Translations under genes and position numbers: made by a program | Notes under the pieces: generated by a model | Database searches by the model: none | What the model saw: only the letters and a program-made list of their open reading frames with translations | Told to the model about the DNA's origin: nothing | Assembly: GCA_018222585.1 (NCBI GenBank) | Contig: JAAFAB010000003.1 | Location: forward strand, 185,781 to 249,780 | DNA: 64,000 nt | Direction of reading: 5' to 3' | From: Paracoccaceae bacterium | GTDB taxonomy: Bacteria; Pseudomonadota; Alphaproteobacteria; Rhodobacterales; Rhodobacteraceae | In this document: in pieces, positions 6,978-24,471 of the stretch | Layout: each line of letters opens with the position of its first letter | Position numbering within the stretch: the stretch's first letter is position 1

Positions 6978-7000
6978 CCTTTTCTCAGGGAGGAGAAACT

Positions 7001-8080
7001 ATGAACTTCATGCTACGTACCGCGCTGGTCGGCGCGCTTGCCATGCCTGGCGCGGCGTTCGCCCAGGAGACGATCAACCTGACGGTGGCCTCCAGCCACC
7101 CGACCGTGATTCCCTGGGTGGGGATGATCAAGACGCATTTCATGGCCCGCACGGACGAGATCCTCGCCGAGACCGGCACCTACCAGATCGAGTGGAACGA
7201 AGCCTTCGGCGGCCAGCTCTACAAGGCCAATGCCACGCTGGATTCGGTCGAGCAGGGCATCACGGATATCGGCTGGGTCTTCTCGTTCCTGGAACCGGCC
7301 AAGCTGCCGATGAGCCAGGCGTCGTCCTATGCGCCCTTCACCACCGCCGATGCCTCGCTGCAACTTGAGGTGATGCAAGAACTGTTCGAGACCAACGAGG
7401 CGTTCCGCAACGAGTGGGAACAGTACAACCTCAAGGTTCTCGGCTTCACCGGCACCGACAGCTATGACGTCTACACCAAGGAGCCGATCTCGGGCTTTGC
7501 CGATCTCGACGGCATGAAGCTCTCGGCGCCGGGGGTGCTGGGCAACTGGCTGCGCGGCACCGGTGCCAATGCCGTGGACGGGGCGCTGACCACCTTCTAC
7601 ACCGACATCCAGACCGGCGTTTCGGATGGCGTCCTCTCGCTGGCGCTCGGCGTGCTGCCCGCGAAGATCTACGAGGTCGCGCCTCATATCACCAAGGTCG
7701 ACATGGGCGTCGCCTTCTCCGGTGCCGTGGCGATCAACCGCGACAGCTGGGACATGCTGCCCGAAGAGGTGCAGGAGGCGATGATCGAGGCCGGGGCCTA
7801 CTACACCGAGGCCCACGGGCGCGACCTGAACGAGCGTCACGCCGCCGCGCTTGACGCCATGGTCGCCGCCGGGGCCGAGCAGAGCACCCCCGTCGAGATC
7901 ACCCCGATGAGCCAGGAAGACCGCGAAGCCTGGGTGAATGCCATGCCCAACATCGCCGGCGAATGGGCCGACACGCTGGAAGAGCGCGGGATGCCGGCCC
8001 GGGACTTCATGAAGTCCTACATCGCCGGTGTGCGCGAACGCGGCGGCGAGCCGGTGCGCGCCTGGGACGACGAGCTGTGA
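7001..8080 (+). CDS. TRAP transporter substrate-binding protein, DctP family
   Basis: SD GGGAGGAGAAACT before ATG 7001; signal peptide MNFMLRTALVGALAMPGAAFAQ; DctP-type body; followed by DctQ and DctM. Confidence 0.9.
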   Translation: MNFMLRTALVGALAMPGAAFAQETINLTVASSHPTVIPWVGMIKTHFMARTDEILAETGTYQIEWNEAFGGQLYKANATLDSVEQGITDIGWVFSFLEPAKLPMSQASSYAPFTTADASLQLEVMQELFETNEAFRNEWEQYNLKVLGFTGTDSYDVYTKEPISGFADLDGMKLSAPGVLGNWLRGTGANAVDGALTTFYTDIQTGVSDGVLSLALGVLPAKIYEVAPHITKVDMGVAFSGAVAINRDSWDMLPEEVQEAMIEAGAYYTEAHGRDLNERHAAALDAMVAAGAEQSTPVEITPMSQEDREAWVNAMPNIAGEWADTLEERGMPARDFMKSYIAGVRERGGEPVRAWDDEL

Positions 8081-8095
8081 TCGCGGAATCCTGAC

Positions 8096-8662
8096 GTGAG
8101 CGAACAGGCAACACCCTCCAGCGGTGCCGGAGTCCGGCACCGCTCCCTCGCCGCCCGGATCTGGGGCGGCGTGGTCGACGCGCTGGCGGCCTTCGGCACC
8201 GCGCTCATTGCCGGGCTGATGCTGCTGATCTGCGCCGATATCGTCGCGCGCAACGGCATGGGCGCCTCGCTGCCGCTGGTTTCTGAGCTGGGGGCGCTGC
8301 TTCTGGTGATGATCGTCTGCCTGCAGTTCGGCGCCACCATCCGCGCCGACAGGCTGGCCCGCGCCGGGCTGTTCCTGGATCCGCTGCGCACGCGCCACCC
8401 TCGGGCCGGCGCCGCGCTGGAAACGGTCTTCGACCTGGTGGGCGCGGGGATGATCGGGCTGATGGCCTGGGCGACCTACGGCATCCTGGTAACCGACTGG
8501 CAGCGCCAGGAATTCATCGGCACCACCGGGCTTGGCACCCTGCCGACATGGCCCTTCCGGGCCTTCATCCTGCTGGGCCTGACGGTCGCGGCACTGGAAT
8601 TCGTGGCCCGTGCCCTGCGCTCGGCGCGCGCCGCTGCGGGACTTTCGGAGGTGACACGATGA
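8096..8662 (+). CDS. TRAP transporter small permease, DctQ family
   Basis: GTG start; four-TM small protein, ADIVARNGMGASLPLVSELGALLLVMIVCLQFG; overlaps DctM start (ATGA). Confidence 0.88.
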   Translation: MSEQATPSSGAGVRHRSLAARIWGGVVDALAAFGTALIAGLMLLICADIVARNGMGASLPLVSELGALLLVMIVCLQFGATIRADRLARAGLFLDPLRTRHPRAGAALETVFDLVGAGMIGLMAWATYGILVTDWQRQEFIGTTGLGTLPTWPFRAFILLGLTVAALEFVARALRSARAAAGLSEVTR

Positions 8663-9972
8663 GCCCCCTTGAAATCGGCTACTATGCCGTCGGCGGCCTT
8701 GTGGTCCTGATCTACCTCGGGATGCCCATCGGGATCGGGATGCTCGGCGTCTCCTTCCTGGGGGTCACGCTGATCCGCAACGATGCGGTGGCCCTGCGGA
8801 TGCTGGGCGCGGCGGGCAATGACAGCCTGCGGGAATATCTCTACGCCGTCGTGCCGCTGTTCGTCCTGATGGGGCTGCTGGTGACGGTGTCCAATGTCGG
8901 CAAGGACACGTTCGACGTGTTCCAGAGGATGCTGCGGCGGGTGATGGCCGGGCTGGGCATTGCCACGGTCTTCGCCAATGCCGTCTTCGCCTCGATCACC
9001 GGCATCTCGATCGCCTCGGCCACGGTGTTCAGCCGCGTCGCAGTGCCCGAGATGACCCGCCACGGCTATTCCAAGCGCTTCGCCACCGGCGTCGTCGCCG
9101 GCTCCTCGGTGCTGGGGATGATGATCCCGCCCTCGCTGCTGATGATCGTCTACGCCGTCCTGGCCGAGGAATCCGTCGGCCGGATGTTCCTGGCCGGGAT
9201 CGGCCCGGGCCTGCTGCTGGCGGTGATCTTCTCGCTCACCATCCTGCTGATGGCGGCGCGGCGCAACGACATGGTCTTTGCCCACCAGGACGACGACGCC
9301 AAGTTCGAGGACTTCTCGGCCTGGCAGCTGCTGCGCAAGGCGGTGCCGATCCTGGCGCTGATGCTGGTGGTGCTGGGCGGCCTCTACGGCGGCTTCCTGA
9401 ACCCGACCGAGGCCGGGGCTGCCGGCGCCGCCGGTGCGCTGGTCATCGCCCTTCTGCGCCGGGCACTGCCCGCGCGCACCCTGTGGCGTCTGATGGTCGA
9501 AACCGGCCAGATCACCGTCTCGGTGCTGTTCCTGATCCTGGCGGCGACCTTCTTCAGCCGGATGCTGGCCCTTTCCGGGGTGCCGCGGGAACTGGCCTCG
9601 ATGTTCCTGGACAGCTCCATCGGGCCCTATGGCTTCCTGCTGGTCTACCTGGTGCTGATCGTCATCCTCGGCTGCCTGATCGACTCGATCTCGATCATGC
9701 TGATCGTGCTGCCGATCGCCCTGCCGGTCGCCGAGGCCGCGGGCTTCGACCTGATCTGGTTCGGCGTGCTGACCGTGGTCGCGGTCGAGATGGGCCTGCT
9801 GACACCGCCCTTCGGCCTGTCGGTCTATACCATCAAGTCGGCCATCGACGATCCCGACCTCTCGGTCGGCGACATCTTCCGCGGCGCCTTCCCCTTCGTC
9901 CTGGCGATGATGGTGGCGCTGGTGATCCTGATCGCCTTCCCGTCGATCTCGACGTGGCTGGCCCGCCTCTGA
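8659..9972 (+). CDS. TRAP transporter large permease, DctM family
   Basis: ATG 8659; polytopic protein with GMMIPPSLLMIVYAVLAEESVGRMFLAGIGPGLLL and GLLTPPFGLSVYTIKS. Confidence 0.93.
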   Translation: MSPLEIGYYAVGGLVVLIYLGMPIGIGMLGVSFLGVTLIRNDAVALRMLGAAGNDSLREYLYAVVPLFVLMGLLVTVSNVGKDTFDVFQRMLRRVMAGLGIATVFANAVFASITGISIASATVFSRVAVPEMTRHGYSKRFATGVVAGSSVLGMMIPPSLLMIVYAVLAEESVGRMFLAGIGPGLLLAVIFSLTILLMAARRNDMVFAHQDDDAKFEDFSAWQLLRKAVPILALMLVVLGGLYGGFLNPTEAGAAGAAGALVIALLRRALPARTLWRLMVETGQITVSVLFLILAATFFSRMLALSGVPRELASMFLDSSIGPYGFLLVYLVLIVILGCLIDSISIMLIVLPIALPVAEAAGFDLIWFGVLTVVAVEMGLLTPPFGLSVYTIKSAIDDPDLSVGDIFRGAFPFVLAMMVALVILIAFPSISTWLARL

Positions 9973-9987
9973 GCTGAAAGAGAAGAT

Positions 9988-10515
9988 ATGCCCAAGATCC
10001 TGCTGATCCCCGGCAGCCTGCGCGCGGCCTCGTCCTCGCGCGCCACGGCCCGCGCCCTGGCCGCGCGCCTGCCCGCCGGGACGAGCCATGCCACCGCCGA
10101 CCCCGGACGGCTGCCGCACTACAATGCCGACATCGCCGATGACCCCGCCGTCGCGGACTTCATCGCCGAGGTCGGAGCGGCGGACGGGCTGATCTTCGTC
10201 ACGCCCGAATACAACTACAGCATTCCCGGCGTGCTGAAGAACGCGATCGACTGGGCCTCGCGCCCGGCCTACGAGTCGGTCTTCAAGGGCAAGCCCTGCC
10301 TCATCGTTTCCACCTCGGGCGGGGCGCTTGGCGGGGTCCGGGCCCAGGCGCATCTGAAGTACATCCTGAACGGGATGCTGGCCGAGGTCTTCCCCTGCAA
10401 GGAAATCATCGTGCCGATGGCCAATGCCAAGGTCGAGGCCGGCGTGCTGACGGACGAAGCCGTGCTGAGCTTCGCCGAGGAGGTCCTCTCGGCCTTCGTC
10501 GACCACCTGGGCTGA
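9988..10515 (+). CDS. NADPH-dependent FMN reductase
   Basis: KILLIPGSLRAASSSRATARAL and FVTPEYNYSIPGVLKNAIDWASRP flavodoxin-like signatures. Confidence 0.9.
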   Translation: MPKILLIPGSLRAASSSRATARALAARLPAGTSHATADPGRLPHYNADIADDPAVADFIAEVGAADGLIFVTPEYNYSIPGVLKNAIDWASRPAYESVFKGKPCLIVSTSGGALGGVRAQAHLKYILNGMLAEVFPCKEIIVPMANAKVEAGVLTDEAVLSFAEEVLSAFVDHLG

Positions 10516-10688: not shown

Positions 10689-11399
10689 ATGAGTGGCAAC
10701 TGGCAGATGGCCCGGGCGTGGATCATGGACAGCATCGCCTCGCGCGACCTGGCGCAGGGCGACAAGCTGCCGACCGAGCAGGAGCTGTTGCGGCAGATCG
10801 GCGTCGGGCGGCACTCGCTGCGCCGCGCCGTGGCCTCGCTGGCCGCCGAGGGGGTTCTTTCGGTCGAACAGGGGCGCGGCACCTTCGTGCGTGGCCAGCC
10901 CCGGATCAACTACCGCATCGGCCGCCGCACCCGCTTCCGCGAGAACCTGGAAAGCCAGGGGGTGAAGCCGGGCGGAGAGACCATCACCGCCGATATCACC
11001 CCCGCCGAGCCCGATGTCGCGCGCGAGCTCTCTCTGCCCGTCGGCACCCCGGTGCACCGCATCCTCGGCCGCTCGCGCGCCGATGACCATCCGCTTGGCC
11101 TGAACCGCAGCTTTCACCCCGCCGGGCGCTTCCCCGACCTTGGGGCAAAGCGCCAGAGCCGCATGTCGGTCACCGATATCTACGCCAGCTACGGCGTGAC
11201 CGATTATCGCCGCCGCACCACCACCATCTACGCCCGCCTGCCCGAGAAATGGGAGGCCAAGCTGCTGGAGCAGCCCGCCGACCAGCCGGTCATCGTCATG
11301 TGCAAGACCGACGAGGACCTCTCGGGCATCCCCATCGGCTGGTCCGAGGCGATCTACGCCGCGGGCCGCATCCGTTTCACCCTCGATTTCCCGGAATAA
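10689..11399 (+). CDS. phnF: PhnF, GntR/HutC family regulator of phosphonate metabolism
   Basis: GntR wHTH (LPTEQELLRQIGVGRHSLRRAVASLAAEGVLSVEQGRGTFV), UTRA domain, position at the head of phnGHIJKLM. Confidence 0.9.
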   Translation: MSGNWQMARAWIMDSIASRDLAQGDKLPTEQELLRQIGVGRHSLRRAVASLAAEGVLSVEQGRGTFVRGQPRINYRIGRRTRFRENLESQGVKPGGETITADITPAEPDVARELSLPVGTPVHRILGRSRADDHPLGLNRSFHPAGRFPDLGAKRQSRMSVTDIYASYGVTDYRRRTTTIYARLPEKWEAKLLEQPADQPVIVMCKTDEDLSGIPIGWSEAIYAAGRIRFTLDFPE

Positions 11400-11402
11400 G
11401 CC

Positions 11403-11840
11403 ATGTTCGACAGACACGGGGGCGAGATGCCCTCTGACGACCTGACCACCCTGGCCCGCGCCGATGCCGCGCGCCTCAAGCTCCTGGCCGAAGAGATCCT
11501 GCCCCGGCTCGGGGACATGCAGGTGCTGAAAAGCGGCACCGGCCTCGTGATGCTGCCCATGCGCGACACGGTGCAGGGGGTGGAGTTCCACCTCGGCGAA
11601 GTGCTGGTGGCCGAAGCCCATGTCCGCCTGCCCTCGGGCACCGAGGGCTACGGCATGGTCACGGGCCGCGACATCGAACGCGCCATGGCCATGGCCCTGC
11701 TGGATGCCGCGCTCAGCGACGGCACCGCCGCCGACCGCATCCGCGCCTTCATCGAGGCAGAGGCCCAGGCACAGCAAGCCGAGGACACCGAGACCCTGCG
11801 CCGGATCGAAGCCACCCGCGTCGACATGGAGACCTTCTGA
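11403..11840 (+). CDS. phnG: C-P lyase system protein PhnG
   Basis: FHLGEVLVAEAHVRLPSGTEGYGMVTGRDIERAMAMALLDAAL; gene order. Confidence 0.9.
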   Translation: MFDRHGGEMPSDDLTTLARADAARLKLLAEEILPRLGDMQVLKSGTGLVMLPMRDTVQGVEFHLGEVLVAEAHVRLPSGTEGYGMVTGRDIERAMAMALLDAALSDGTAADRIRAFIEAEAQAQQAEDTETLRRIEATRVDMETF

Positions 11841-12382
11841 TGCTTGCCACCCCCCTGCCCGACGCCGAGGAAATCCGCGACAACGCGACCTTCGACGCCG
11901 TCCTTGGCGCCCTCTCCCGCCCCGGCACCCTGCGCGACCTGCCCGAACCCGGCCCCCTCTGCATCGCGCTGGCGCTGCTGGACCGCGAATGCCGCGTGCA
12001 TGCCGGGGATGAGACCCTCTCGGCCCGGATCGCCGCCACCGGCGCGGCCCTGGTGCCCGCGCATGAGGCCGATCACGTCTTCATGGCCGCCGACAGCGCC
12101 GAGGCGCTTGCGGTCATCGCCGGGCTCGACACCGGCTCTCACCTCTATCCCGACGAGGGCGCCACACTGATCGTGCCGGCAAGGATCGGCGCAGGCCAGG
12201 CGCTGCAACTCACCGGCCCCGGCATCAAGTCGGTCGAGCGCATCTGCCTTGATGGCATCCACCCCGGCTTCTGGGCCCTGCGCGCCCGGCTGTGCGCCTA
12301 CCCGCGCGGTATCGAGGTGCTGATCCACGACGGGGCCCGCCTGCTGGCCCTGCCCCGCTCTACCCAAGTGACGGAGGTCTGA
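11840..12382 (+). CDS. phnH: C-P lyase system protein PhnH
   Basis: NATFDAVLGALSRPGTLRDLP and VERICLDGIHPGFWALRARLCAYPRGIEVLI; gene order. Confidence 0.9.
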   Translation: MLATPLPDAEEIRDNATFDAVLGALSRPGTLRDLPEPGPLCIALALLDRECRVHAGDETLSARIAATGAALVPAHEADHVFMAADSAEALAVIAGLDTGSHLYPDEGATLIVPARIGAGQALQLTGPGIKSVERICLDGIHPGFWALRARLCAYPRGIEVLIHDGARLLALPRSTQVTEV

Positions 12383-12385
12383 GAC

Positions 12386-13462
12386 ATGGCATATGTGGCA
12401 ACCCGCGGTGGCGAACGCGCCATCGAACAGAGCGAAAGGCTCTACCGTGCCCAGATGGGCCAGATCGACGCCGCCCGCGTGGCCGAGATCGAAAAGGCCC
12501 TGCCGGCCCTTGTCGACCGGGTGATGGGCGAGGCCTCTCTCTACGCCCCCGACCTTGCGGCGCTGGCCCTGGCCCAGTCGGGCGGGGACCTCTACGAGGC
12601 GCTGCTGCTGCTGCGCGCCTGGCGCACCACCCAGCCCCGGTTGCAGATCGCCGAGGTCGTGGCCCCGGACGCCGGTTTCACACATCGCCGCATCTCTGCC
12701 GCCTTCAAGGACATCCCCGGCGGCCAGATCCTTGGCCCGACGCTGGACTACGCGCACCGCCTGCTGGCGACCGAGGTGCTGGAAGACCAGCCCTACGCCC
12801 CGCCCGCAGTCGAGCCCGCCGCGAAACCCGCACCCGCCACGCATCCCTCGCTGGCCGAATGGCAGCGCGCGCAGGGCCTTGTGACCACGCCCGAGGCCGC
12901 CCCGGTGCCGCGCGACGAGATCCCCGACCTGACCCGCGAGCCGCTGCTGTTCCCCGCCAAGCGCGCCCATACGCTGCAAAGCCTGGCGCGCGCCGATACC
13001 GGTGGCACGCTGGCGCTCGGCTATTCGGCCATGCGCGGCTACGGCAACAGCCACCCGACGGTGAACGAGCTGCGCCTTTCGGAGGTCGAGGTCATGGTCG
13101 CCCACCCCGACGGGCGGCGCTTCTCTGCGGGTCGGGTCAAGACCTCCCAGGCCGAGGTGGTGACCACCAAGGGCAAGGGCGAACTGCGTCTCGGCTTCAC
13201 CGCCACGCTGGGCTGGAACGAGGTCAAATGCATCTCTGCCGCCACGCTGGACCTGAACGCGCCGGGGGCCGAGAAGAACTCGCCGGTCGAAGAGGAATTC
13301 TTCCTCTACCACACCGAGCCCGTCGAAAGCTCGGGCTTCTGCATCCACTTCAAGCTGCCCCACTACGTCACCTTCCAGTCCTCGCTGGACAACCTGCGCG
13401 CGGCGAAATCCGCCCAGGCGGAACAGGCGCAACCCACTGACAAGGAAGAGGAAACCGCATGA
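12386..13462 (+). CDS. phnI: C-P lyase system protein PhnI
   Basis: YVATRGGERAIEQSERL, RRISAAFKDIPGGQILGPTLDYAHRLL, ALGYSAMRGYGNSHPTVNELR, and HFKLPHYVTFQSSLDNL (keeps the two conserved His). Confidence 0.95.
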   Translation: MAYVATRGGERAIEQSERLYRAQMGQIDAARVAEIEKALPALVDRVMGEASLYAPDLAALALAQSGGDLYEALLLLRAWRTTQPRLQIAEVVAPDAGFTHRRISAAFKDIPGGQILGPTLDYAHRLLATEVLEDQPYAPPAVEPAAKPAPATHPSLAEWQRAQGLVTTPEAAPVPRDEIPDLTREPLLFPAKRAHTLQSLARADTGGTLALGYSAMRGYGNSHPTVNELRLSEVEVMVAHPDGRRFSAGRVKTSQAEVVTTKGKGELRLGFTATLGWNEVKCISAATLDLNAPGAEKNSPVEEEFFLYHTEPVESSGFCIHFKLPHYVTFQSSLDNLRAAKSAQAEQAQPTDKEEETA

Positions 13463-14370
13463 GCCTTTCCGATCTCACAGGCCGCTGGAAGGCGTTTTCC
13501 TACGGCTTCCTCGATGCCTCGGCCAAGCGCGAGCTGCGCCGCAAGATGATCAAGGCCGTCGCCGTGCCCGGCTGCCAGATGCCCTATGCCTCGCGCGAGG
13601 TGCCGATTGCTCGGGGCTGGGGCACCGGCGGGCTTCAGGTGACCCTGACGCTGGTCAAGCCGTCCTCCACCGTGAAGGTGATCGACCAGGGCGCCGACGA
13701 CAGCGTCAACGCCGCCTCGATCCGTCGTTTCCTGTCCCGCGTCTCGGGCGCGGCGGAAACCTGGGACACGCTGGACGCCACGCTGATCCAGTCGCGCCAC
13801 CGCATCCCGGAAGAGAAACTGACCCGCGACCAGATCCTGATCCTGCAGGTCCCCAACCCCGAACCCCTGCGCGGGGTCGAGCCCAACATGTCCACCGCCC
13901 GCCAGATGCATGCGGATGCCGACTACGGGCGGATGTGGCTGCAGCTTTACGAACAGATGGTCCGCTCGGGCCGGGTAATGCTGGGGGCCTCCTACCCGGC
14001 GATGGTCAACGGCCGCCACGTCATGACCCCCTCACCGATCCCCCGCTGGGACGTGAAGAAGCTTCACATGGCCGAACACCTGACGATCCTTTCGGCGGGC
14101 CGCGAGAAACGCATCTTCGCCGTGCCGCCCTATACGCGGGTCGAGCCGCTGGTCTTCGACGATGTGCCCTACAAGGTCGAGGACCACGCGCATCTGACCT
14201 GCGCCCGCTCCGGCGTCACCGGCTACTTCATGAACGAGATCCCGCAAGAAGACGGCTCGGCGGGCTACGAGGTCTCGGACAGCCACTTCGGCATCAAGGC
14301 CATCGACGCCCGCGACGGCGGCACACCGACGGTCGGACAGACCTGGTACAGAAACGGAGAGCTGGCATGA
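13459..14370 (+). CDS. phnJ: PhnJ-family C-P lyase catalytic subunit homologue with an atypical cysteine motif
   Basis: Strong family match (KAVAVPGCQMPYASREVPIARGWGTGG, KVIDQGADDSVNAASIRRF, LSAGREKRIFAVPPYTRVE), but the C-terminus reads LTCARSGVTGYFMNEIPQEDGSAGYEVSDSHFGIKA. Confidence 0.93.
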   Translation: MSLSDLTGRWKAFSYGFLDASAKRELRRKMIKAVAVPGCQMPYASREVPIARGWGTGGLQVTLTLVKPSSTVKVIDQGADDSVNAASIRRFLSRVSGAAETWDTLDATLIQSRHRIPEEKLTRDQILILQVPNPEPLRGVEPNMSTARQMHADADYGRMWLQLYEQMVRSGRVMLGASYPAMVNGRHVMTPSPIPRWDVKKLHMAEHLTILSAGREKRIFAVPPYTRVEPLVFDDVPYKVEDHAHLTCARSGVTGYFMNEIPQEDGSAGYEVSDSHFGIKAIDARDGGTPTVGQTWYRNGELA

Positions 14371-15167
14371 GCGCCCTGATGAAAGAGGCCCCACGCCTCG
14401 TCCGCACCCAGCCCCTGATGGAGCTGTCGGGCCTGTCGAAGACCTATGGCAACGTCCGCGCGCTGGATGACGTTTCCGCCCGTGTCTACCCGGGCGAAGT
14501 GCTTGGCATCGTGGGGGAATCCGGCTCGGGCAAATCGACCTTGCTGCGCATGATGAACCTCGAGGAAAGCCCCGACACCGGCCGCTACCGGCTGGACCTG
14601 CCCGAGTTGCCCGAGGACCTGTTTACCCTCGACCGTTTCGAACGGCGGATGCTGCGCGCCCGCCGTATCGGCATCGTCTACCAGAACCCGCACCTTGGGC
14701 TGCTGATGAAGCATTCGTCCTCCGGCAACGTCGCCGAGCGGCTGCTGGTCGCGGGCGAACGCCGTTTCGCGGTGCTGCGCGAGAAGGCGCAGGTGGCGCT
14801 TGAGGCCTCCGAATTCCCCATCCCCCGCATGGATGCCCCGCCGATCGAGCTGTCGGGCGGGATGCAGCAGCGGGTGCAGCTGGCCAAGGCCATCGCGCTG
14901 GAACCCGCCGTTCTGCTGCTGGATGAACCGACCACGGGGCTGGATGTCTCCGTTCAGGCGCTGGTGCTGGATACGCTGAAGCGGCTGCAACAGGAACGTC
15001 GCATCACCATGGTACTGGTCAGCCACGACCTTGGCGTGATCCGCACCATGGCCGACCGGGTGATGGTCATGCGCCATGGCCGGGTGGTCGAGGAAGGGCT
15101 TGCCGACCAGGTCTTCCAGGACCCGCAGCACGCCTACACCCAGCAACTTGTCCACGCGAAACTCTGA
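14367..15167 (+). CDS. phnK: C-P lyase system ATP-binding protein PhnK
   Basis: ABC ATPase: Walker A GESGSGKST, signature LSGGMQQRVQLAKAIALEP, Walker B VLLLDEPTTGLDVSVQA; order after phnJ. Confidence 0.92.
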   Translation: MSALMKEAPRLVRTQPLMELSGLSKTYGNVRALDDVSARVYPGEVLGIVGESGSGKSTLLRMMNLEESPDTGRYRLDLPELPEDLFTLDRFERRMLRARRIGIVYQNPHLGLLMKHSSSGNVAERLLVAGERRFAVLREKAQVALEASEFPIPRMDAPPIELSGGMQQRVQLAKAIALEPAVLLLDEPTTGLDVSVQALVLDTLKRLQQERRITMVLVSHDLGVIRTMADRVMVMRHGRVVEEGLADQVFQDPQHAYTQQLVHAKL

Positions 15168-15175
15168 GGCCCCTC

Positions 15176-15892
15176 ATGACCACGATCCTGGATGTTCAAG
15201 GTCTGACCAAGACCTTCGAGATGCACCACCTGGGCCAGTCCCTTCCGGCTTTCGAGGACCTGTCCTTCACCCTGCACGCGGGTGAATTCCTGCTGCTGTC
15301 GGGGCCCAATGGCGTCGGCAAGTCGACCCTGTTGCGCACCCTCTATCGCAGCTACCTGCCCGTCGCCGGGCACCTGTGGTTCCATTCCCGCGAGGGGGTG
15401 ATCGACATGGCCAATGCCGCCGATATCGACGTGGCGCACCTGCGCCGGACCGAGATCGGTTTTGTCACCCAGTTCCTCAACGCCCGCCCCCGCGTCGCCG
15501 CCGAGGAGATCGTCGCCGAGCCGATGCGCCTTGCGGGCTATGGTCGCGAAGAGGCGCTGGAACAGGCGCGGCACTGGCTGGCGGCCTTCGGCGTGAAGCC
15601 CGACCTCTGGCGCGCCTACCCCACGACCTTCTCGGGTGGCGAGCAGCAGAAGGTGAACCTGGCCCGCGCGCTGATCCTGCCGCAGCGGATGCTGCTGCTG
15701 GACGAACCGACGGCCTCTCTCGACAAGGGCGCCCGCGCGGCGCTGGTTGCCCGCCTGGCTGAGCTGAAGGCGCAGGGCGTCGCCATGATCGGCGTCTTCC
15801 ACCATCCGGGCGATGTCGCCGCGCTGATCGACCGCGAAATCCCCCTGAAACCCAAGACCCCTATCGAGGAAATTGCCGATGTGGCTCTCTGA
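15176..15892 (+). CDS. phnL: C-P lyase system ATP-binding protein PhnL
   Basis: Walker A GPNGVGKST, FSGGEQQKVNLARALILPQRMLLLDEPTASLD; order after phnK. Confidence 0.92.
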   Translation: MTTILDVQGLTKTFEMHHLGQSLPAFEDLSFTLHAGEFLLLSGPNGVGKSTLLRTLYRSYLPVAGHLWFHSREGVIDMANAADIDVAHLRRTEIGFVTQFLNARPRVAAEEIVAEPMRLAGYGREEALEQARHWLAAFGVKPDLWRAYPTTFSGGEQQKVNLARALILPQRMLLLDEPTASLDKGARAALVARLAELKAQGVAMIGVFHHPGDVAALIDREIPLKPKTPIEEIADVAL

Positions 15893-17057
15893 TTTCCGCG
15901 TCGTCCTGCCCGACATCGTGCTGCCGCAAGGCTCTGTCCGTATCGAGGACGGCAAGATCGCCGAGCTGCGCGACACCCCCGTCCCCCATGCCGAGATCGA
16001 CGGGCGCGGGTTGCTGCTGATGCCCGGCTTCATCGACATGCATGGCGACATGATCGAGCGCGAGGTCGAGCCCCGCCCGAACGTCACCATGCCGATCGAA
16101 CTGGGCCTGCGTGACCTCGACCGCCGCCTGAAGGTATCCGGCATCACCACCGGCTATGCCGCCGTGTCCTTCACGCCGAAGTCGGTACACGGGCACATGC
16201 GCAGCCACGCCCATTCCTCGCAGATGCTGCGCGACCTGAAGGCGATGCGCGGCCTGTTGAAGGTCGACCACCGCGTCCACACCCGGTTCGAGGTCAACTT
16301 CCCCGACGCGCTGGAGGTGATCGAAGAGCTGATCGCCAATGGGACCGTCGATCTGGTGTCCCTGATGGATCACACGCCGGGGCAGGGGCAGTACCGTAAC
16401 CTCGAGAAGATCCGCGCCAATGCCATCCGCGCCGGGGCCACCCCCGAAGAGGCGGACGAGAACATCCAGCGCCGGATCGACATGCGGCTGGAAGCGCAGG
16501 GCGACGTCGGTGCGACACTCGAGGCGATCTCCAAGACCTGCGCCGCGCATGGCATCGCCGTCGCCTCGCATGATGACGACACGGTCGAGAAGGTGGCGCT
16601 GATGGACTCGCTCGGCGCCACGATCTCGGAATTCCCGGTGACGCTGGAAGCCGCCGCCGAGGCCAAGGCGCGCGGGCTGCTCACCGCCATGGGCGCGCCC
16701 AATGCGCTGCGCGGCGAAAGCTATTCGGGCAACCTTTCCGCGCGGGAGGCCTATCGCAACGGCCTGCTGGATATCCTGGCCGCCGATTACCACCCCTCGG
16801 CCATCCTGCCCGCCATCCTGGCGCTGGCGCCCATGCGCCCCGGTGGGCTGGCGGAGTCCACCCGGCTGGCGACCCTCACCCCGGCCCGCGCCCTGCACCT
16901 GGAGGATCGCGGAGAGATCGCGCCGGGCAAGCTGGCCGACCTGGTCATCGCCGATGACGACGGCGTCGGCCATGTCCGCGCCACCCTGCGCCACGGCGCC
17001 TTCATCTTCTCGGACGGAAGTGTCAGCCAACGCCTGACCGCTGTCGCAGCCCAGTAA
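15879..17057 (+). CDS. phnM: PhnM-type alpha-D-ribose 1-methylphosphonate 5-triphosphate diphosphatase (copy 1)
   Basis: LLMPGFIDMHGDMIEREVEPRP, SLMDHTPGQGQYRN, ASHDDDT, ALRGESYSGN, ILAADYHPSA. Start may be 15873; overlaps phnL. Confidence 0.92.
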   Translation: MWLSDFRVVLPDIVLPQGSVRIEDGKIAELRDTPVPHAEIDGRGLLLMPGFIDMHGDMIEREVEPRPNVTMPIELGLRDLDRRLKVSGITTGYAAVSFTPKSVHGHMRSHAHSSQMLRDLKAMRGLLKVDHRVHTRFEVNFPDALEVIEELIANGTVDLVSLMDHTPGQGQYRNLEKIRANAIRAGATPEEADENIQRRIDMRLEAQGDVGATLEAISKTCAAHGIAVASHDDDTVEKVALMDSLGATISEFPVTLEAAAEAKARGLLTAMGAPNALRGESYSGNLSAREAYRNGLLDILAADYHPSAILPAILALAPMRPGGLAESTRLATLTPARALHLEDRGEIAPGKLADLVIADDDGVGHVRATLRHGAFIFSDGSVSQRLTAVAAQ

Positions 17058-17066
17058 GGACATCCC

Positions 17067-17885
17067 ATGACCCTACCCGTGATCGGCGCCGCCCTCGGCG
17101 TCTCGGAACTCGCCACCTACCGCGACTGGCTGTTCGACAAGGACCGCGATCTGGAAATCCAGAGCTTTTCGAACCCCGAGCTGCTGATCTCGGGCGACTG
17201 GCAGGACCTGGTCGACGAGGCGAAGACACAGCTGGACGGTTTCGCCGGGCGCTACGGTATCCACGGGCCGTTCTGGGGGCTGAGCTTCAGCAATCCCGAC
17301 CCCGAGATCCGCGCCATGGTGGCCCGCCGCATGGCACAGGGGCTGGACATCTGCGAGGCGCTTGGCGCGACGCACATGGTCATCCATTCGCCCTTCACCA
17401 CCTGGGATCACCACAACCTGGCGACCTATCCCGGCGCGATGGAGCGGCTGACGGCATGGGTCCACGAAAGCCTCGGCGCTGCCGTGAAGCGGGCCGAAGA
17501 TGCGGGCGTCACGCTGATGCTGGAAAACATCGAGGATATCGACCCCGCCTGGCGCAAGGCACTGGCCGAAAGCTTCGGCTCGGAGGCCATCAAGCTGTCC
17601 ATCGACACCGGCCACGCGCAGTACGCCCATGGCTCGACCGGTGCACAGCCGGTTGATTTCTATGTCCGCTCGGCGGGCGAGATGCTGGGCCATGTCCACC
17701 TGCAGGACGCCGACGGCTATGCCGACCGCCACTGGCAGATCGGCCAGGGCTCGATCCGCTGGCACGAGGTCTTCAAGGCGCTTGGCGAGCTGGAAGCCAG
17801 GCCCCGCCTGATCCTGGAGCTGCGCGACAAGGCCGGTATCCTGCCCTCGATGGAGTGGCTGGAACGCGAGGGGTTGGGCCAGTAA
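17067..17885 (+). CDS. Sugar phosphate isomerase/epimerase-like TIM-barrel protein
   Basis: AP-endonuclease-2-like features: ALGATHMVIHSPF, LMLENIEDIDP, LSIDTGHAQYAHG, LGHVHLQDADG, LILELRD. Nine bp downstream of phnM. Confidence 0.75.
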   Translation: MTLPVIGAALGVSELATYRDWLFDKDRDLEIQSFSNPELLISGDWQDLVDEAKTQLDGFAGRYGIHGPFWGLSFSNPDPEIRAMVARRMAQGLDICEALGATHMVIHSPFTTWDHHNLATYPGAMERLTAWVHESLGAAVKRAEDAGVTLMLENIEDIDPAWRKALAESFGSEAIKLSIDTGHAQYAHGSTGAQPVDFYVRSAGEMLGHVHLQDADGYADRHWQIGQGSIRWHEVFKALGELEARPRLILELRDKAGILPSMEWLEREGLGQ

Positions 17886-17901
17886 TCGGGGCCAGTAGCC
17901 C

Positions 17902-18681
17902 TTACCGCCGCTGAGTCCATTTCACCGTCGTCTCCCACGCCAGGGGGGCGGCGGTTTCCTTTTCGACATGGCGGGCGCAGATCTCTTCCAGGTCGCGCAT
18001 CACCGGGCCAAGACCGACCCGGCGCACCAGCGACCACACGGACGAGCGGGTCAGGTAGAAATCGACCAGCCCGCGCAGCTCACGCGGCTCGGCCCAGGTG
18101 TAGGTGCGCGACCGGGCGGTCTTGAACCCTTCGACCGAGGACAGCTCGCGCACCGTCGGCTCGCGTTGCGCCGCGACCTCGCCCAGGGCGCCGGCCGCGC
18201 GGGAGGCCCGGGCGACATGGGCGGCGATCTCTTCGGTCAGCGGGCTCGGCACCATGCGGTTGCGAAGCAGGGCCAGCACGGCGCCGGGGGCCATGACCCG
18301 GCGCGCCTCGGCGTAGAAGCCCGGCGCATCGAACCAGTGGAAGGCGGAACAGGCGACGACCAGACCGGCCGAGCCATCGGGCAGGGGCAGCGCCTCGGCC
18401 GTGCCGTCGGTGGCCTGCACCCGTGCGTCATCGCGGAAGCTGCGCGCCAGCACGCGGCGCATGTCGCGCCCCGGTTCCACCGCCGTCACCAGCCAGCTTT
18501 CGGGCAGCGCGGCACGCAGGGGCCGGGTCGAGGTGCCCGGCCCCGCGCCCACATCGACCGCCAGGGCGCGGCCCGAGGTGCAGAGCGGCAGCAGGTCGCG
18601 GAATGCCTCGACCGGATAGTCCGGGCGGTAGAGGGCATAGGCTTCGGCCAGCCCTTCGAAGCGGTCCGCGTGATCGGCCAT
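17902..18681 (-). CDS. Class I SAM-dependent methyltransferase
   Basis: DVGAGPGTSTRPLRAALPESWLVTAVEPGRDMRRVLA and ACSAFHWFDAPGFYAEARRVMAPGAVLALL; ATG overlaps phnM2 stop. Confidence 0.85.
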   Translation of the reverse strand: MADHADRFEGLAEAYALYRPDYPVEAFRDLLPLCTSGRALAVDVGAGPGTSTRPLRAALPESWLVTAVEPGRDMRRVLARSFRDDARVQATDGTAEALPLPDGSAGLVVACSAFHWFDAPGFYAEARRVMAPGAVLALLRNRMVPSPLTEEIAAHVARASRAAGALGEVAAQREPTVRELSSVEGFKTARSRTYTWAEPRELRGLVDFYLTRSSVWSLVRRVGLGPVMRDLEEICARHVEKETAAPLAWETTVKWTQRR

Positions 18682-19925
18682 CAGATGCCCCCGAAGCGCC
18701 CCGTGCCATGGGCCACCCGCCCCGCGCTGAGGGTCATCAGCACCTGCGGCGCGGCCCCTTCGGGCCAGTCCAGCGCCACCAGGTCGGCACGTTGCCCCGG
18801 CACGATCTCGCCCCGGTCGGGCAGGTTCGAGGCGCGCGCCGGATTGGTCGAGACCAGTTTCCACAGCTCATGCAGCGCGCCACGCCCCTCGGCGTGCAGC
18901 CGCGCCACGGCGGCCAGCATGGCGGGGTAGTAGTAGTCCGAGGCCAGGATATCGCAGAGCCCCGCGCCGACCATCTCGGCCGCCCCGGGCGAGCCGATGT
19001 GACTGCCCCCGCGCAGCACGTTGGGCGCGCCGAAGATGATGTGATCGCCCGCCGCCCGCGCGGCCTCGGCCGTGCGCAGGTTCATCGGGAACTCGCTGAC
19101 ACGAGAGCCGATGCCGCGGTAATAATCCCGCGTCTCGACCTGGGTATCGTCATGGGACAGCATCGGGGCCCCGGCGGCGCGAGCGGCCCTTGCGACGCGG
19201 TCGATGGCAGCGGGCACCTCGTCGCGCCTGCCCCAGGTGTCCCGCATCAGGGCGATGAACTCGGTGACAGGGATGTCGGCACGGGCGGCGCGTTTCTCCA
19301 TCTTGCGGGCGAAGGCGGCAGAGTCGATGTCGGTGATCGGATACTCCGGCACCATGTCGAAGGGGCGTTCCTGCAAAGGCACGTCCGGCGACAGAAGGGC
19401 CATGGTGGTATGATCGTTGAAGGCGACCGAGGGCGTCAGTGGCCCGGTCAGCATCTGCTCGATCAGGGGGATGGCGTCGAAACAGAAGGTCTCCCACCGC
19501 AGTTGCACCCGGTTTTCCACGGCGAAACGGGGGGCCAGCGCACTCAGCGCCTCGGTGATCTGGCGGCCATGGGCAACCGAGCGCAGGCCGGGTTCCCAGC
19601 TCAGCGTCAGGGCATGGAAGGCGGTGGCGATCCCATTGCCGGCCAGCTGGCGGTCGGTTTCCAGCAGGGCGGTCTCGACCGGGAAGAAGACGCCGGGGCG
19701 CGGCATCAGCTGGCGCTCGAAGGCATCGCCGTGGATATCGACCAGCGCGGGCGCCAGCAGGCAGCCCGTCGCGTCGATCACCCGCGCGCCGTCGCGCGCC
19801 ACGTCCAGGCCGGTGATTTGCCCGTTCTCGATCCGTACCGAGACGTTCTCGACGCCACCGGAGAGAATCACCTGCGCGCCTTCGATCTGTACTGCCTGCA
19901 TCTGTCGCCCCGTCTGGCCTCTCAT
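18681..19925 (-). CDS. phnM2: Second PhnM-type triphosphate diphosphatase (divergent paralogue)
   Basis: LLAPALVDIHGDAFERQLMPRPGV, VAFNDHTTMALLS, LSHDDTQ, VLRGGSHIGSPGAAEMV, ILASDYYYPAMLAAV. True start may be the Met at about 19901. Confidence 0.9.
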   Translation of the reverse strand: MRGQTGRQMQAVQIEGAQVILSGGVENVSVRIENGQITGLDVARDGARVIDATGCLLAPALVDIHGDAFERQLMPRPGVFFPVETALLETDRQLAGNGIATAFHALTLSWEPGLRSVAHGRQITEALSALAPRFAVENRVQLRWETFCFDAIPLIEQMLTGPLTPSVAFNDHTTMALLSPDVPLQERPFDMVPEYPITDIDSAAFARKMEKRAARADIPVTEFIALMRDTWGRRDEVPAAIDRVARAARAAGAPMLSHDDTQVETRDYYRGIGSRVSEFPMNLRTAEAARAAGDHIIFGAPNVLRGGSHIGSPGAAEMVGAGLCDILASDYYYPAMLAAVARLHAEGRGALHELWKLVSTNPARASNLPDRGEIVPGQRADLVALDWPEGAAPQVLMTLSAGRVAHGTGRFGGI

Positions 19926-20029: not shown

Positions 20030-20138
20030 ATTCGCGGGGTCCCGCCCCGCGTGGCGACAGGGCATCGCGGCGCAACTCCTTGAATTGGCGCACTATACGC
20101 TGCCGGATTTCACAGAACTGACAAGACTCGCTTGCGCA

Positions 20139-20154
20139 ATATTCATTCGGACGA
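20139..20154. promoter_or_regulatory. Candidate phn regulatory motif copy 4
   Basis: ATATTCATTCGGACGA (reverse complement TCGTCCGAATGAATAT) 38 bp upstream of phnC. Confidence 0.45.
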
Positions 20155-20191
20155 TGCGGGGACGTCACGGAACTGGGCGACGGTCCGGCTC

Positions 20192-21010
20192 ATGGAAAAC
20201 GCATCCCTGACCCTCACCTCCGTCACCCGCCGCTTCGGGGAAACCCGCGCGGTGGACAATGTGACCCTGACAGTCGAGCCCGGCCAGTTCGTCGGTGTCA
20301 TCGGCCGCTCGGGCGCCGGCAAGTCGACGCTGCTGCGCCTGATCAACCGCCTGATCGATCCCAGCGAGGGGCAGATCACTTTCGGAGACCGCCAGATCAC
20401 CGCCATGAAGGGCCGCGAGCTGCGCGCCTGGCGGCGGGATTGCGCGATGATCTTCCAGCAGTTCAACCTGGTCGAGCGCCTGGACGTGCTGACCAACGTG
20501 CTGGTCGGCCAGCTGGCCGGGCACGGGTTCCTCAACTCGATGACGATGCGCTTCTCGGATGCCGAGCGCGCCCGCGCCATCCAGGCCCTTGATCGGCTGG
20601 ACATGGCGCCCAAGGCGCTGCAACGCGCCGGCACCCTTTCGGGCGGCCAGCAGCAGCGCGTCGCCATCGCCCGGGCGCTGGTGCAGGACCCGCGCATCAT
20701 GCTGGCCGATGAACCCATCGCCTCGCTCGACCCGGGCAATGCCACCCGGGTGATGGAGGCGCTGCGCACCATCAACCGCGAAGACGGGCTGACCGTTCTG
20801 GTCAACCTGCACACCCTCGACACCGCCCGCGCCTATTGCGACCGCATCATCGCCATGCGCGAAGGCCGGGTCTTCTTCGACGGCACCGCCGCCCAGCTGA
20901 CCGACGATGTCGTCCGCGACATCTACGGCTCCGAAGGGCTGGCCGAGTTCAACGAGGCCGTCACCTCCACGTCCATTTCCAACCGTCGGGCCGCCAAGAT
21001 TCCGGCCTGA
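20192..21010 (+). CDS. phnC: Phosphonate ABC transporter ATP-binding protein PhnC
   Basis: [42 protein letters not shown]; followed by phnD/E. Start [11 protein letters not shown]. Confidence 0.93.
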
Positions 21011-21044
21011 CCCCGCACAGAGCGCACCTAAAGGGAGACTCCCC

Positions 21045-21962
21045 ATGAAACTGCTCAGCACCGCCGCCCTCGTGGCACTGATCGCCGCCCCCGCCATGGC
21101 CGAGGGCTGGAAGGACGACTACCAGGTCGTCAAGTTCGGCATCCTCTCGGGTGAGAACGAGAAGGACCGCCTGATGCGCAACGAACCGCTGCGCGCCTAC
21201 CTGGAAAAGACGCTTGGCGTCGAGGTCGAGATGTTCACCGCCGGCAACTATGACGGCGTGATCCAGGCCATGGCCGCCGACCAGATCGAGGTCGCCTCCT
21301 TCGGCTCCTCCTCCTATGCCGCGGCCTACACCCTGACCGAGGGCGGCGTCCGCCCGACCCTGACCAGCATCAAGAAGGACGGCAACACCGGCTACCGCTC
21401 CATCGTGGTGACCCGTTGCGACAGCGGCATCACCTCGCTGGAAGACGCCAAGGGCAAGGTTCATGCCTTCGCCGATCCCGACAGCACCTCGGGCTACGCC
21501 GTACCCTACTTCAACATGAAGGAACGCCTCGGCATCGACCCGGCCACCTACTTCTCGGCCACCCCCTTCGGCGGCAGCCACGAGGCCGATGTGCAGGGCG
21601 TCGTCAACGGCACCTTCGACACCGCCTCGACCTACCAGAACAACGACGCCGACGGCATCTATCAGCGCATGGAAACCAAGGGCATGATCGAGCCCGGCGT
21701 GGTCTGCAAGATCTGGGAATCCCCCGAGATCACCTCGGGCCCGGTCACCTTCCGTACCAACCTGCCCGACGAGATGATCGAAGCGATCACCGAAGCCTAC
21801 CTGTCGTTCCCGCAGGACGATCCGGAAGGCTACGCGCTCTATTCCTCCTTCGATCCGGAAGACCCGAACCCCTCGGTTGGCTGGACCCGCGTCGATCATG
21901 ACCGCTACCAGTGGATCGTCGACATGCGCGACTGGCTGAAGCGCGAGCGTCGCGGCTCCTGA
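21045..21962 (+). CDS. phnD: Phosphonate ABC transporter substrate-binding protein PhnD
   Basis: Signal peptide MKLLSTAALVALIAAPAMAEG; FADPDSTSGYAVPYFNMKERLGIDPATYFS typical of PhnD. Confidence 0.95.
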   Translation: MKLLSTAALVALIAAPAMAEGWKDDYQVVKFGILSGENEKDRLMRNEPLRAYLEKTLGVEVEMFTAGNYDGVIQAMAADQIEVASFGSSSYAAAYTLTEGGVRPTLTSIKKDGNTGYRSIVVTRCDSGITSLEDAKGKVHAFADPDSTSGYAVPYFNMKERLGIDPATYFSATPFGGSHEADVQGVVNGTFDTASTYQNNDADGIYQRMETKGMIEPGVVCKIWESPEITSGPVTFRTNLPDEMIEAITEAYLSFPQDDPEGYALYSSFDPEDPNPSVGWTRVDHDRYQWIVDMRDWLKRERRGS

Positions 21963-22023
21963 TCGCCTGATACCGGGGCGGGCCCGTCATGGACCCGCCC
22001 CTTCCCTTTTGCCGGATACCCCA

Positions 22024-22971
22024 ATGACCGCCACAGCCGAGTTCACCACCGCGCCGCCCCTGTCCGGCCCCTCCGCCATTGCCGCCTTCGAACGCGGCTT
22101 CGCGTTGCAGCGCCGCCGCGCACGGGTGAACTGGGCCATCGGCGCCGTGCTCTTCTTCGCCGTCTTCCTGCTGACCGCCTGGATGGGCGACTTCTTCAAG
22201 GTCACGCAGGTGACGCTGCGCGATGGATCGCGGGAATGGCGCTGGATCATCGGCGCCGGCCTGCCGCGCCTTGGGGAGTTCATCACCAAGACCTTCCCCG
22301 TGCTGCGATGGGACAGCCTGGGCGCCGACCTGGCCGAATGGTTCTGGCGCTGGCAGACCTGGCTGCGCCTGCTGGTCGAGACCATCCTGATCGCCTTCAT
22401 GGCCACGGTCTTCGGCGTCATCGGCGGCTTCCTGATCTCGTTCCCCGCCTCGCGCAACCTGTCGCCCAACCGCACCGTCCTGTGGATCGCCCGCCGCTTC
22501 CTGGAAATCGCCCGCACGGTGCCGGAACTGGTCTGGGCGCTGATCTTCGTCTTCTGCTTCTCGGTCGGTCCGATGGCCGGGGTGCTGGCGGTCGGGCTTC
22601 ATGCCTGCGGTTCGCTCGGCAAGCTCTACTCGGAAGTGAACGAGAACATCGACATGCGCCCGCTGGAGGGCGTGAGGGCCGCGGGCGGCACCTGGTTCGA
22701 CCAGATCCGCTACGCCGTGGTGCCGCAGGTGCTGCCGAACATCATCAGCTACACGCTGCTGCGCTTCGAGATCAACGTCCGCTCGTCCTCGATCATCGGC
22801 TACGTCGGCGCGGGCGGCCTGGGGCAAGAGATCCGTACTGCCATGTCCTTCCAGGAATACACCGACCTCTCGGCGCTGTTCCTGATCATCCTCGTCACCG
22901 TGGTCGTCATCGACTTCGGCTCGGAAAAACTCCGCCATCGCATCATCGGCCTGGGAGAGCGTGACGCATGA
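22024..22971 (+). CDS. phnE: Phosphonate ABC transporter permease PhnE1
   Basis: Polytopic; VEGVRAAGGTWFDQIRYAVVPQVLPNIISYTLLRFEINVRSSSIIGYVGAGGLGQEI. Start MTATAEFTT likely. Confidence 0.92.
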   Translation: MTATAEFTTAPPLSGPSAIAAFERGFALQRRRARVNWAIGAVLFFAVFLLTAWMGDFFKVTQVTLRDGSREWRWIIGAGLPRLGEFITKTFPVLRWDSLGADLAEWFWRWQTWLRLLVETILIAFMATVFGVIGGFLISFPASRNLSPNRTVLWIARRFLEIARTVPELVWALIFVFCFSVGPMAGVLAVGLHACGSLGKLYSEVNENIDMRPLEGVRAAGGTWFDQIRYAVVPQVLPNIISYTLLRFEINVRSSSIIGYVGAGGLGQEIRTAMSFQEYTDLSALFLIILVTVVVIDFGSEKLRHRIIGLGERDA

Positions 22972-23834
22972 CCCCCGACATGACACCCGAACAGATCGCC
23001 GCCGCCAAGGCTGCCTATCCCACCGCCTTCCGCGCGCCGCTGAGCATCCGCCTGCGCCGCACCGCGCTCTGGGCCGGGTTCGCCCTGCTCTTTTGCTACT
23101 GCCTCTGGGCCTTCGACTTTTCGCCCGCCCGCATCTGGACCGGTCTCCAGCGTCTCGGCGATGTGCTGGGCTTCATGCTGCCGCCCTATATCTGGAAAAG
23201 CTGGGCCGAGTTCCTGCCGATCCTCGAGGGCCTCGGCGAAACGCTGTCGATGGCCTTCATGGGCACACTTATCGGCGCGGTCTTCGCCTTCCCGCTTTCG
23301 TTCCTGGGCGCCAAGAACATCACCCGCTTCTGGCCCCTGCGCATGGGCGTGCGGCGCGGCTACGACGTGATCCGCGCCTTCGAGACGCTGGTGCTCGCAC
23401 TGATCTTCATCCGCGCCTTCGGTCTGGGACCGCTGGCCGGGATCCTCGCCATCGCGGTCAGCGAAATCGGCACCTTCGCCAAGCTCTTCTCGGAAGCGAT
23501 CGAGAACACCTCGGAAAAGCCTGTCGAGGGCATCAGGGCCTCGGGCGGGGCGCGTCTGCAGCAGATCCGTTTCGCCGTGATGCCGCAGGTGATGCCGGTG
23601 ATCTGGTCGATCCTGCTCTACAATTTCGAATCCAACGTCCGCTCGGGCACCATCCTGGGCATCGTCGGCGCGGGCGGCATCGGCTTCCTGCTGTCGGACC
23701 GCATCGCCGCCTACAAGTGGGACGAGGCCTGGTCGATCATCTTCCTGATCATCGCCATGGTCTATGTCATCGACTACCTCTCCGGCCTGATCCGCGCCCG
23801 GATCATCGGCCTCAACGAAGGGGCGGCCCACTAG
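22968..23834 (+). CDS. phnE: Phosphonate ABC transporter permease PhnE2
   Basis: VEGIRASGGARLQQIRFAVMPQVMPVIWSILLYNFESNVRSGTILGIVGAGGIGFLL. Confidence 0.92.
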   Translation: MTPDMTPEQIAAAKAAYPTAFRAPLSIRLRRTALWAGFALLFCYCLWAFDFSPARIWTGLQRLGDVLGFMLPPYIWKSWAEFLPILEGLGETLSMAFMGTLIGAVFAFPLSFLGAKNITRFWPLRMGVRRGYDVIRAFETLVLALIFIRAFGLGPLAGILAIAVSEIGTFAKLFSEAIENTSEKPVEGIRASGGARLQQIRFAVMPQVMPVIWSILLYNFESNVRSGTILGIVGAGGIGFLLSDRIAAYKWDEAWSIIFLIIAMVYVIDYLSGLIRARIIGLNEGAAH

Positions 23835-23856: not shown

Positions 23857-24471
23857 ATGTCCGCCAAGAAACTGACCGAAGCCCCGAACATCCACGACAC
23901 CGCCACGGTGCTGAACTGCGAGCTGGGCCGCTGGACCGAGATCCACGCCAATGTGACGATGAAGGATGTCACCTTCGGGGATTATTCCTACATCGTGAAG
24001 GACAGCTCCGCCGTCTGGTCGACCATCGGCAAGTTCTGCTCGATCGCGCAGGGGGCGCGGATCAACCCCGGCAACCACGCCACCTGGCGCGCCGCGCAGC
24101 ACCATTTCACCTACCGGGCCGAGATGTTCGGGCTGGGCGAGGACGATCACGACTTCTTCCAGTGGCGCAAGGATCACTGGGTGACCATCGGTCATGACGT
24201 CTGGATCGGCCACGGGGTCACGGTGCTGGCAGGCGTCACCATCGGCACCGGCGCGGTGATCGGCGCGGGCGCGGTGGTGTCGAAGGACGTCGCCCCCTAC
24301 GAGATCGTCGGCGGCGTGCCGGCCAAACATCTCAAGTGGCGGTTTACACCGGCGCAGGCAGAGGCGATCATGGGCATCGCCTGGTGGGACTGGAGCCACG
24401 ATCAGCTTCGCGACCGCCTGCCCGATATCCGGGCGCTCTCCATCGACGACTTCATCGAGAAATATTCGTGA
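23857..24471 (+). CDS. Phosphonate metabolism hexapeptide-repeat acetyltransferase
   Basis: Left-handed beta-helix repeats (ATVLNCELGRWTEIHANVTMKDVTFGDYSYI; IGTGAVIGAGAVVSKDVAPYEIVGGVPAKHLKWRF). Confidence 0.85.
   Translation: MSAKKLTEAPNIHDTATVLNCELGRWTEIHANVTMKDVTFGDYSYIVKDSSAVWSTIGKFCSIAQGARINPGNHATWRAAQHHFTYRAEMFGLGEDDHDFFQWRKDHWVTIGHDVWIGHGVTVLAGVTIGTGAVIGAGAVVSKDVAPYEIVGGVPAKHLKWRFTPAQAEAIMGIAWWDWSHDQLRDRLPDIRALSIDDFIEKYS

Follow-up and report, generated by a model that had tools for sequence, protein, structure and literature searches.

What does a carbon–phosphorus (C-P) lyase gene cluster do that carries two PhnM paralogues, a TIM-barrel protein and a methyltransferase, with neither phnN nor phnP in view? 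The question is raised by a stretch of 64,000 nt from a Paracoccaceae bacterium (assembly GCA_018222585.1, contig JAAFAB010000003.1, positions 185,781 to 249,780), called the window here. It is contig C46 in our numbering of a 5.15 Mb genome that is 99.9% complete. An earlier note on this DNA had read these features as a sign of a modified C-P lyase route, possibly one in which the TIM-barrel protein processes a ribose-phosphate intermediate. The features are real but mostly explained by the content of the genome and by known features of Rhodobacterales. Rather than a canonical pathway from which genes have gone, the window contains a second C-P-lyase-like operon that is complete (phnFGHIJ*KLM1) and has an importer of its own (phnCDE1E2). 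According to family models, synteny and comparison with E. coli, the whole phnGHIJKLM core is present. The operon is a new and apparently undescribed variant of C-P lyase. The PhnJ class of the window is labelled PhnJ*, and its residues are given in E. coli numbering.

A PhnJ class without the cluster cysteines

phnJ* (13459..14370, + strand) matches PF06007 with 391 bits. At the positions of Cys241, Cys244, Cys266 and Cys272 it carries C, S, V and G, and the canonical cysteine set is therefore incomplete. Gly32, Arg107, His108 and Gln124 are kept in the alignment with E. coli. The neighbouring phnI (12386..13462, +) is of a variant type (match to E. coli PhnI, 4xb6_C, E 2.5e-59) and keeps the zinc-site residues His219, His328 and His333. 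In the E. coli cryo-electron microscopy structure, a putative Fe4S4 site is formed by the cysteines that are lost here, and zinc and 5-phosphoribosyl-1,2-cyclic phosphate (PRcP) are bound by the residues that are kept (PMC9947105). The residues of the zinc-PRcP site (PhnI His328 and His333; PhnJ Arg107, His108 and Gln124) are all found in the window operon.

The comparison of the window PhnJ with 397 family genomes was bimodal: 24 genomes had 74–82% identity, and the others 45–53%. PF06007 scores were 370–410 bits for PhnJ* and 470–500 bits for canonical PhnJ. PhnJ* was also found in Devosia, Hoeflea, Aureimonas, Mesorhizobium, Neorhizobium, Phyllobacterium and Anaerolineae, and the clade thus spans Alphaproteobacteria and Anaerolineae. 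Cys244, Cys266 and Cys272 were lost in 53 of 53 PhnJ* sequences and retained in all 17 other PhnJ. Gly32, the 47–50 loop, Arg107, His108 and Gln124 were retained in 53/53. The PhnI proteins of these operons were similarly uniform (His219 in all 53; His328 and His333 in 52, the remaining sequence being gapped there).

In a PhnJ tree built with the Cys region removed, PhnJ* formed one side of a single branch (SH-aLRT 99), and the cysteine loss is one change on this tree. The operon core was intact in nearly all PhnJ* loci long enough to show it. The PhnM1 proteins formed a clade of their own (46 rows, support 100/95, Anaerolineae included), which matches the PhnJ* operons. Because the PhnJ* branch and the PhnM1 clade correspond, the core operon must have diverged as one unit, with PhnM1 as a paralogue that diverged together with PhnJ*. 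No description of a cysteine-less PhnJ was found in the literature, with subscription papers outside the coverage.

Two further observations concern single loci. In a Rhodobacteraceae metagenome-assembled genome (MAG; UBA6796, L104:1880-12764), one contig carries a PhnJ* operon in tandem with a canonical phnGHIJK operon. PhnJ* and PhnM1 of Paracoccus shanxieyensis (L075) and Aureimonas altamirensis (L084) are almost identical although the species belong to different orders, which suggests that there was a recent horizontal transfer or that one assembly is contaminated.

The PhnJ* operon may still be a radical C-P cleaver, in which the role of the lost cysteines is taken over by another cofactor site or by a canonical PhnJ acting in trans. 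Gly32 is kept in 53/53, a new cysteine adjacent to this radical site (Cys33, in the motif PGCQ) occurs in 43 of 53, and most of the 34 PhnJ* genomes that were scanned for every PhnJ hold both types. The joint loss of Cys244, Cys266 and Cys272 in every member speaks against it, as do the genomes with PhnJ* alone: G075 and G300 (both ~99% complete), G404 (Haematobacter massiliensis) and the Anaerolineae MAGs G406 and G407. A radical mechanism for PhnJ* is therefore doubtful. PhnJ* was also the only type in the partial genome G338.

phnN, PhnP and the downstream tail

In the canonical route, PhnI with G, H and L forms a ribosyl-phosphonate triphosphate, PhnM removes pyrophosphate, PhnJ breaks the C-P bond, and a cyclic phosphodiesterase and PhnN finish (PMC3840354). 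The window contains no phnN, phnP or DUF1045 gene, and matches of the genome to these families sit on other contigs. The earlier note was thus right about what is in view. It was also right that this cluster differs from the canonical route, given the atypical PhnJ and the PhnM1 that diverged with it. Its inference from the missing genes failed.

A genome-wide search for a second phnGHIJKL, as the earlier note had proposed, found a second PhnJ (476 bits) on contig C30, as part of a complete canonical cluster (phnF, phnGHIJKLNM, phnDE1E2 and a hexapeptide transferase). Inside this cluster lies phnN (C30:84707-85228, 167 bits, cut-off 156). The note had itself named phnN elsewhere in the genome as an outcome against its reading, and a missing phnN is ruled out as a feature of this genome. 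For PhnP, no match above the cut-off was found genome-wide (best 56.8 bits versus 272), which rules out PhnP as the ring opener. A single DUF1045 gene is present on C20 (177.6 bits), and DUF1045/RcsF has been proposed to stand in for PhnP in Rhodobacterales and rhizobia (PMC3840354, PMC8235418).

The genome encodes five PhnM-like proteins. Two belong with the canonical C30 cluster, one of them being an extra PhnM-like gene that this cluster carries on the opposite strand. A second PhnM-like gene in C-P lyase clusters of Rhodobacterales was described in 2013 (PMC3840354). The fifth PhnM-like gene (L015:7635-8795, contig C35) stands alone between groEL and purE/purK, with no phn gene recognised near it; in the tree it is sister to the accessory PhnM of the canonical cluster. 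Given phnN on C30, DUF1045 on C20 and the published second PhnM-like gene, the features that had prompted the note are mostly explained.

The genomes with PhnJ* alone bear on how the route ends. In G075, G300 and G404, phnN (above the cut-off) and DUF1045 both lie within ~9 kb of PhnJ*, and there is no canonical PhnJ. This suggests that the PhnJ* route ends in the usual tail, from cyclic ribose phosphate via ribose 1,5-bisphosphate to phosphoribosyl pyrophosphate (PRPP). It also suggests that the window operon relies on the phnN and DUF1045 genes located elsewhere in the genome.

Two known systems are closest to the operon as a whole. The E. coli C-P lyase (phnCDEFGHIJKLMNOP; PDB 4xb6, 7z15-7z19) is like the window in subunits G to M and in the zinc-PRcP residues of PhnI and PhnJ. 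It differs in that the window PhnJ is without the Fe-S/thiyl cysteines 244, 266 and 272, and that phnN, phnP and phnO are absent from the window cluster. The Rhodobacterales cluster B3TF_MPn_2 (PMC3840354; relatives in PMC5649143) shares the second PhnM-like gene, two phnE, the hexapeptide transferase and a 2H phosphoesterase (RcsF) that replaces PhnP. Its gene content resembles the canonical C30 type. The operon of the window is paralogous to this type and distinct from it, and has a TIM barrel in addition.

PhnM paralogues, methyltransferase and TIM barrel

The four genes in question were confirmed by their coordinates and family matches. phnM1 (15879..17057, +), the operon's own PhnM, starts at ATG 15879 and shares 14 nt with the end of phnL. 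It belongs to the family of alpha-D-ribose 1-methylphosphonate 5-triphosphate diphosphatase and passes both NF011988 (517 bits, cut-off 369) and TIGR02318 (421 bits, cut-off 390.55). The AP_endonuc_2 TIM-barrel gene (17067..17885, +; PF01261, 105 bits), a putative phosphodiesterase, begins 9 nt downstream of the phnM1 end. On the opposite strand follow an S-adenosylmethionine-dependent methyltransferase (17902..18681, -; PF08241, 52 bits) and phnM2 (18681..19925, -). The junction of these two is TGATG with one shared base, and not the ATGA overlap described earlier. All four genes have homologues at corresponding places in other genomes and pN/pS values of 0.39–0.65, and they are therefore real and constrained. 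The methyltransferase is the least constrained of the four. Values were 0.26–0.35 for PhnJ*, 0.24–0.30 for PhnI and 0.21–0.27 for PhnK.

PhnM2 belongs to an accessory PhnM subfamily. It scores below the TIGR02318 cut-off (281–287 bits versus 390.55) and above that of NF011987 (369 bits versus 253). It forms a separate clade (16 rows, 100/100), which mixes copies beside PhnJ* with copies beside canonical clusters (L201, L205). The metal-type set of PhnM (HxD, His, His, Asp) is kept as His65, Asp67, His172, His258 and Asp330; no close relative was found among solved structures. PhnM2 (≥48% identity) occurred in 18 of 24 PhnJ* genomes and 28 of 373 others (p = 4e-14), and the TIM barrel in 18/24 and 81/373 (p = 1e-7), both counts being taken by hand from tables and ignoring genome relatedness. 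By hand count, the TIM barrel lay within ~2 kb of 17 of 47 PhnM2 genes. PhnM2, the TIM barrel and METHYLTRANSFERASE form a recurrent unit, D'-C'-E'-methyltransferase-PhnM2-(MFS)-TIM, which adjoins PhnJ* operons (e.g. L207) as well as canonical ones (L201, L205). A third PhnM subtype is paired with the TIM barrel in L194-L196, L203 and L204.

Neither PhnM2 (at the threshold used) nor the TIM barrel (at E≤1e-40) was found in G075 and G300, the genomes with only the variant PhnJ. Both genes are therefore accessory, and both also occur beside canonical clusters. By the same absence, the idea that the PhnJ* pathway depends on the TIM barrel is ruled out. The methyltransferase is likewise accessory: a homologue at the same place was found in only two relatives (L046 and L080), and at other loci a different methyltransferase (~217 aa) precedes phnM2. 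It is thus ruled out as a conserved partner.

The rarity of the methyltransferase, and the absence of phnM2 and the TIM barrel from some PhnJ* genomes, would fit redundant or passenger genes in a decaying duplicate operon. Purifying selection (pN/pS), the PhnJ* identity of 74–82% across genera, a core intact in nearly every long-enough locus and the strong co-occurrence oppose this. This reading is very improbable.

The route of the earlier note, taken as one in which the TIM barrel makes up for phnN and phnP by processing a ribose-phosphate intermediate, can be judged in the same way. The gene is the next one after phnM1 both in the window and in Maritimibacter (L072), and its superfamily contains diesterases and sugar epimerases. 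Yet phnN and DUF1045 are present in the genome, and beside PhnJ* where a canonical cluster is absent. The TIM barrel is missing from G075 and G300; copies are found next to canonical clusters and within glycerol-phosphate operons, and most are outside phn loci. We consider this role improbable.

The residues of the TIM barrel point to a different function. The ligands H66, H107, E153, D180, H183, H211, D220, H222 and E251 were invariant in 40 homologues. In hhalign with E. coli endonuclease IV (Nfo), eight of the nine were aligned, and His66 corresponds to Nfo His69 by position only. Together the nine match the metal-ligand set of Nfo. Sugar epimerases of the AP endonuclease 2 superfamily use only a one-metal subset of these ligands. 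Because all nine are conserved, we infer a diesterase that would free phosphate or phosphonate from esters, in preference to an isomerase. The cobamide phosphodiesterase CbiR and endonuclease IV (PMC7733943) share the superfamily fold and the full His/Asp/Glu ligand set. CbiR (NF041277) was also the best NCBIfam match, although at 51.5 bits it is below the cut-off of 105, and the TIM barrel differs in its neighbours, which are phn or glycerol-phosphate genes.

Alternatively, the TIM barrel may be an ordinary epimerase or isomerase of sugars or sugar phosphates, in the operon by chance. The predicted structure (pLDDT 93.9) was closest in Foldseek to Thermus thermophilus TTHB071 (3ayt, 3ayv; TM 0.72), followed by many D-tagatose/psicose 3-epimerases (TM ~0.6–0.7), and sequence matches to epimerase models were found. 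TTHB071, uncharacterised according to its PDB title, is also the nearest in sequence among solved structures (E 8e-23). The invariant extra three-metal ligands H66, H107, D220 and H222, which align with endonuclease IV where covered, the CbiR match and the neighbouring diesterases and glycerol-phosphate genes all argue against an epimerase, which we regard as unlikely.

Stand-alone copies of the TIM barrel (L183, L185, L188, L191, L197, L198, L199) adjoin SpdA-like phosphodiesterases, UgpB-like binding proteins, GDPD or GlpD, and are a possible organophosphate diesterase family. In Phaeobacter, a PhoB-dependent predicted phosphodiesterase lies beside a sugar-type ATP-binding cassette (ABC) transporter (PMC10132767), and this locus may be such a stand-alone case. 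Use of the phosphonate esters in dissolved polysaccharides has been reported for marine Roseobacters, with a postulated enzyme for the cleavage of the ester (PMC5649143).

Proposed chemistry and neighbouring genes

The window genes look like a second, ancient version of C-P lyase, apparently a working machine that does its chemistry another way. With moderate confidence, and from sequence comparison, we propose a C-P-lyase-like complex that works without a radical, ribosylates phosph(on)ate and passes cyclic ribose phosphate on to the PRPP tail. PhnGHI(L) would ribosylate imported phosph(on)ate with ATP, and PhnM1 would take off diphosphate. As PhnJ* would be unable to assemble the usual cluster or to generate a thiyl radical, cleavage, if any, would take place at the zinc site with a non-alkyl leaving group. 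At the PhnI/PhnJ* zinc site, the ribose 2-hydroxyl may attack phosphorus in RNase-type chemistry and split the P-X bond without a radical. This would require a leaving group better than an alkyl carbanion, e.g. a phosphate ester or activated phosphonate. DUF1045 and PhnN would then convert the cyclic ribose phosphate to PRPP. The TIM barrel may act before entry into the complex, as a metal-dependent phosphodiesterase releasing phosph(on)ate from ester (diester) forms, and phnM2 may be a second PhnM for alternative ribosylated substrates.

Several observations weigh against this proposal. The radical-site Gly32 is kept, and Cys241 is retained and Cys33 gained in most PhnJ*. Most PhnJ* genomes also hold a canonical cluster, so that subunits may mix there. 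The two Anaerolineae with PhnJ* (G406, G407) have no phnN or DUF1045 above the cut-off, and the tail is therefore not shared by all. In fold, the TIM-barrel model comes closest to TTHB071 and then to sugar epimerases, and not to endonuclease IV. The co-occurrence statistics carry the limits given above.

The wider version of the proposal is more tentative. A widespread, apparently undescribed C-P lyase branch (Alphaproteobacteria, Anaerolineae) may have dropped radical chemistry. Its zinc site, powered by the PhnK/L ATPases, would ribosylate and cleave organophosphorus compounds other than alkylphosphonates, and a phnM2/methyltransferase/TIM-diesterase module would extend the substrates to esters.

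The relation of the Fe-S cluster and glycyl radical of C-P lyase, ~30 Å apart, to the zinc/PRcP site is unresolved (PMC9947105). A lineage that lost the cluster cysteines yet keeps every zinc-site residue is a natural test of the zinc site alone. Moreover, PF06007 scores both PhnJ types far above its cut-off of 25 bits. Counts of phnJ as a proxy for methane-forming phosphonate degradation therefore include PhnJ* proteins, which are probably incapable of it.

The remaining operon genes are all on the + strand. The GntR-type regulator phnF (10689..11399; TIGR02325, 180.7 bits), phnG (11403..11840; TIGR03293, 105 bits) and phnH (11840..12382; TIGR03292, 107 bits) score above their cut-offs. The ATPase genes phnK (14367..15167, start approximate; TIGR02323, 223 bits, cut-off 303) and phnL (15176..15892; TIGR02324, 239 bits, cut-off 256) score below those of their best NCBIfam models. 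Downstream of phnM2, the phosphonate ABC importer comprises a phnC-type ATPase (20132..21010, start approximate; PF00005 and synteny in relatives), a phnD-type binding protein (21039..21962, start approximate; synteny, and a homologue in the canonical cluster L014) and the phnE1-type (22009..22971) and phnE2-type (22968..23834) permeases, both assigned by synteny in relatives. A hexapeptide-repeat transferase follows (23857..24471; PF00132 and synteny), a usual companion of phn clusters of a type described before (PMC3840354). Directly upstream of phnF (6908-10515) lie tripartite ATP-independent periplasmic (TRAP) transporter genes and an NADPH-dependent flavin mononucleotide reductase; a TRAP transporter is likewise found next to the canonical cluster on C30.

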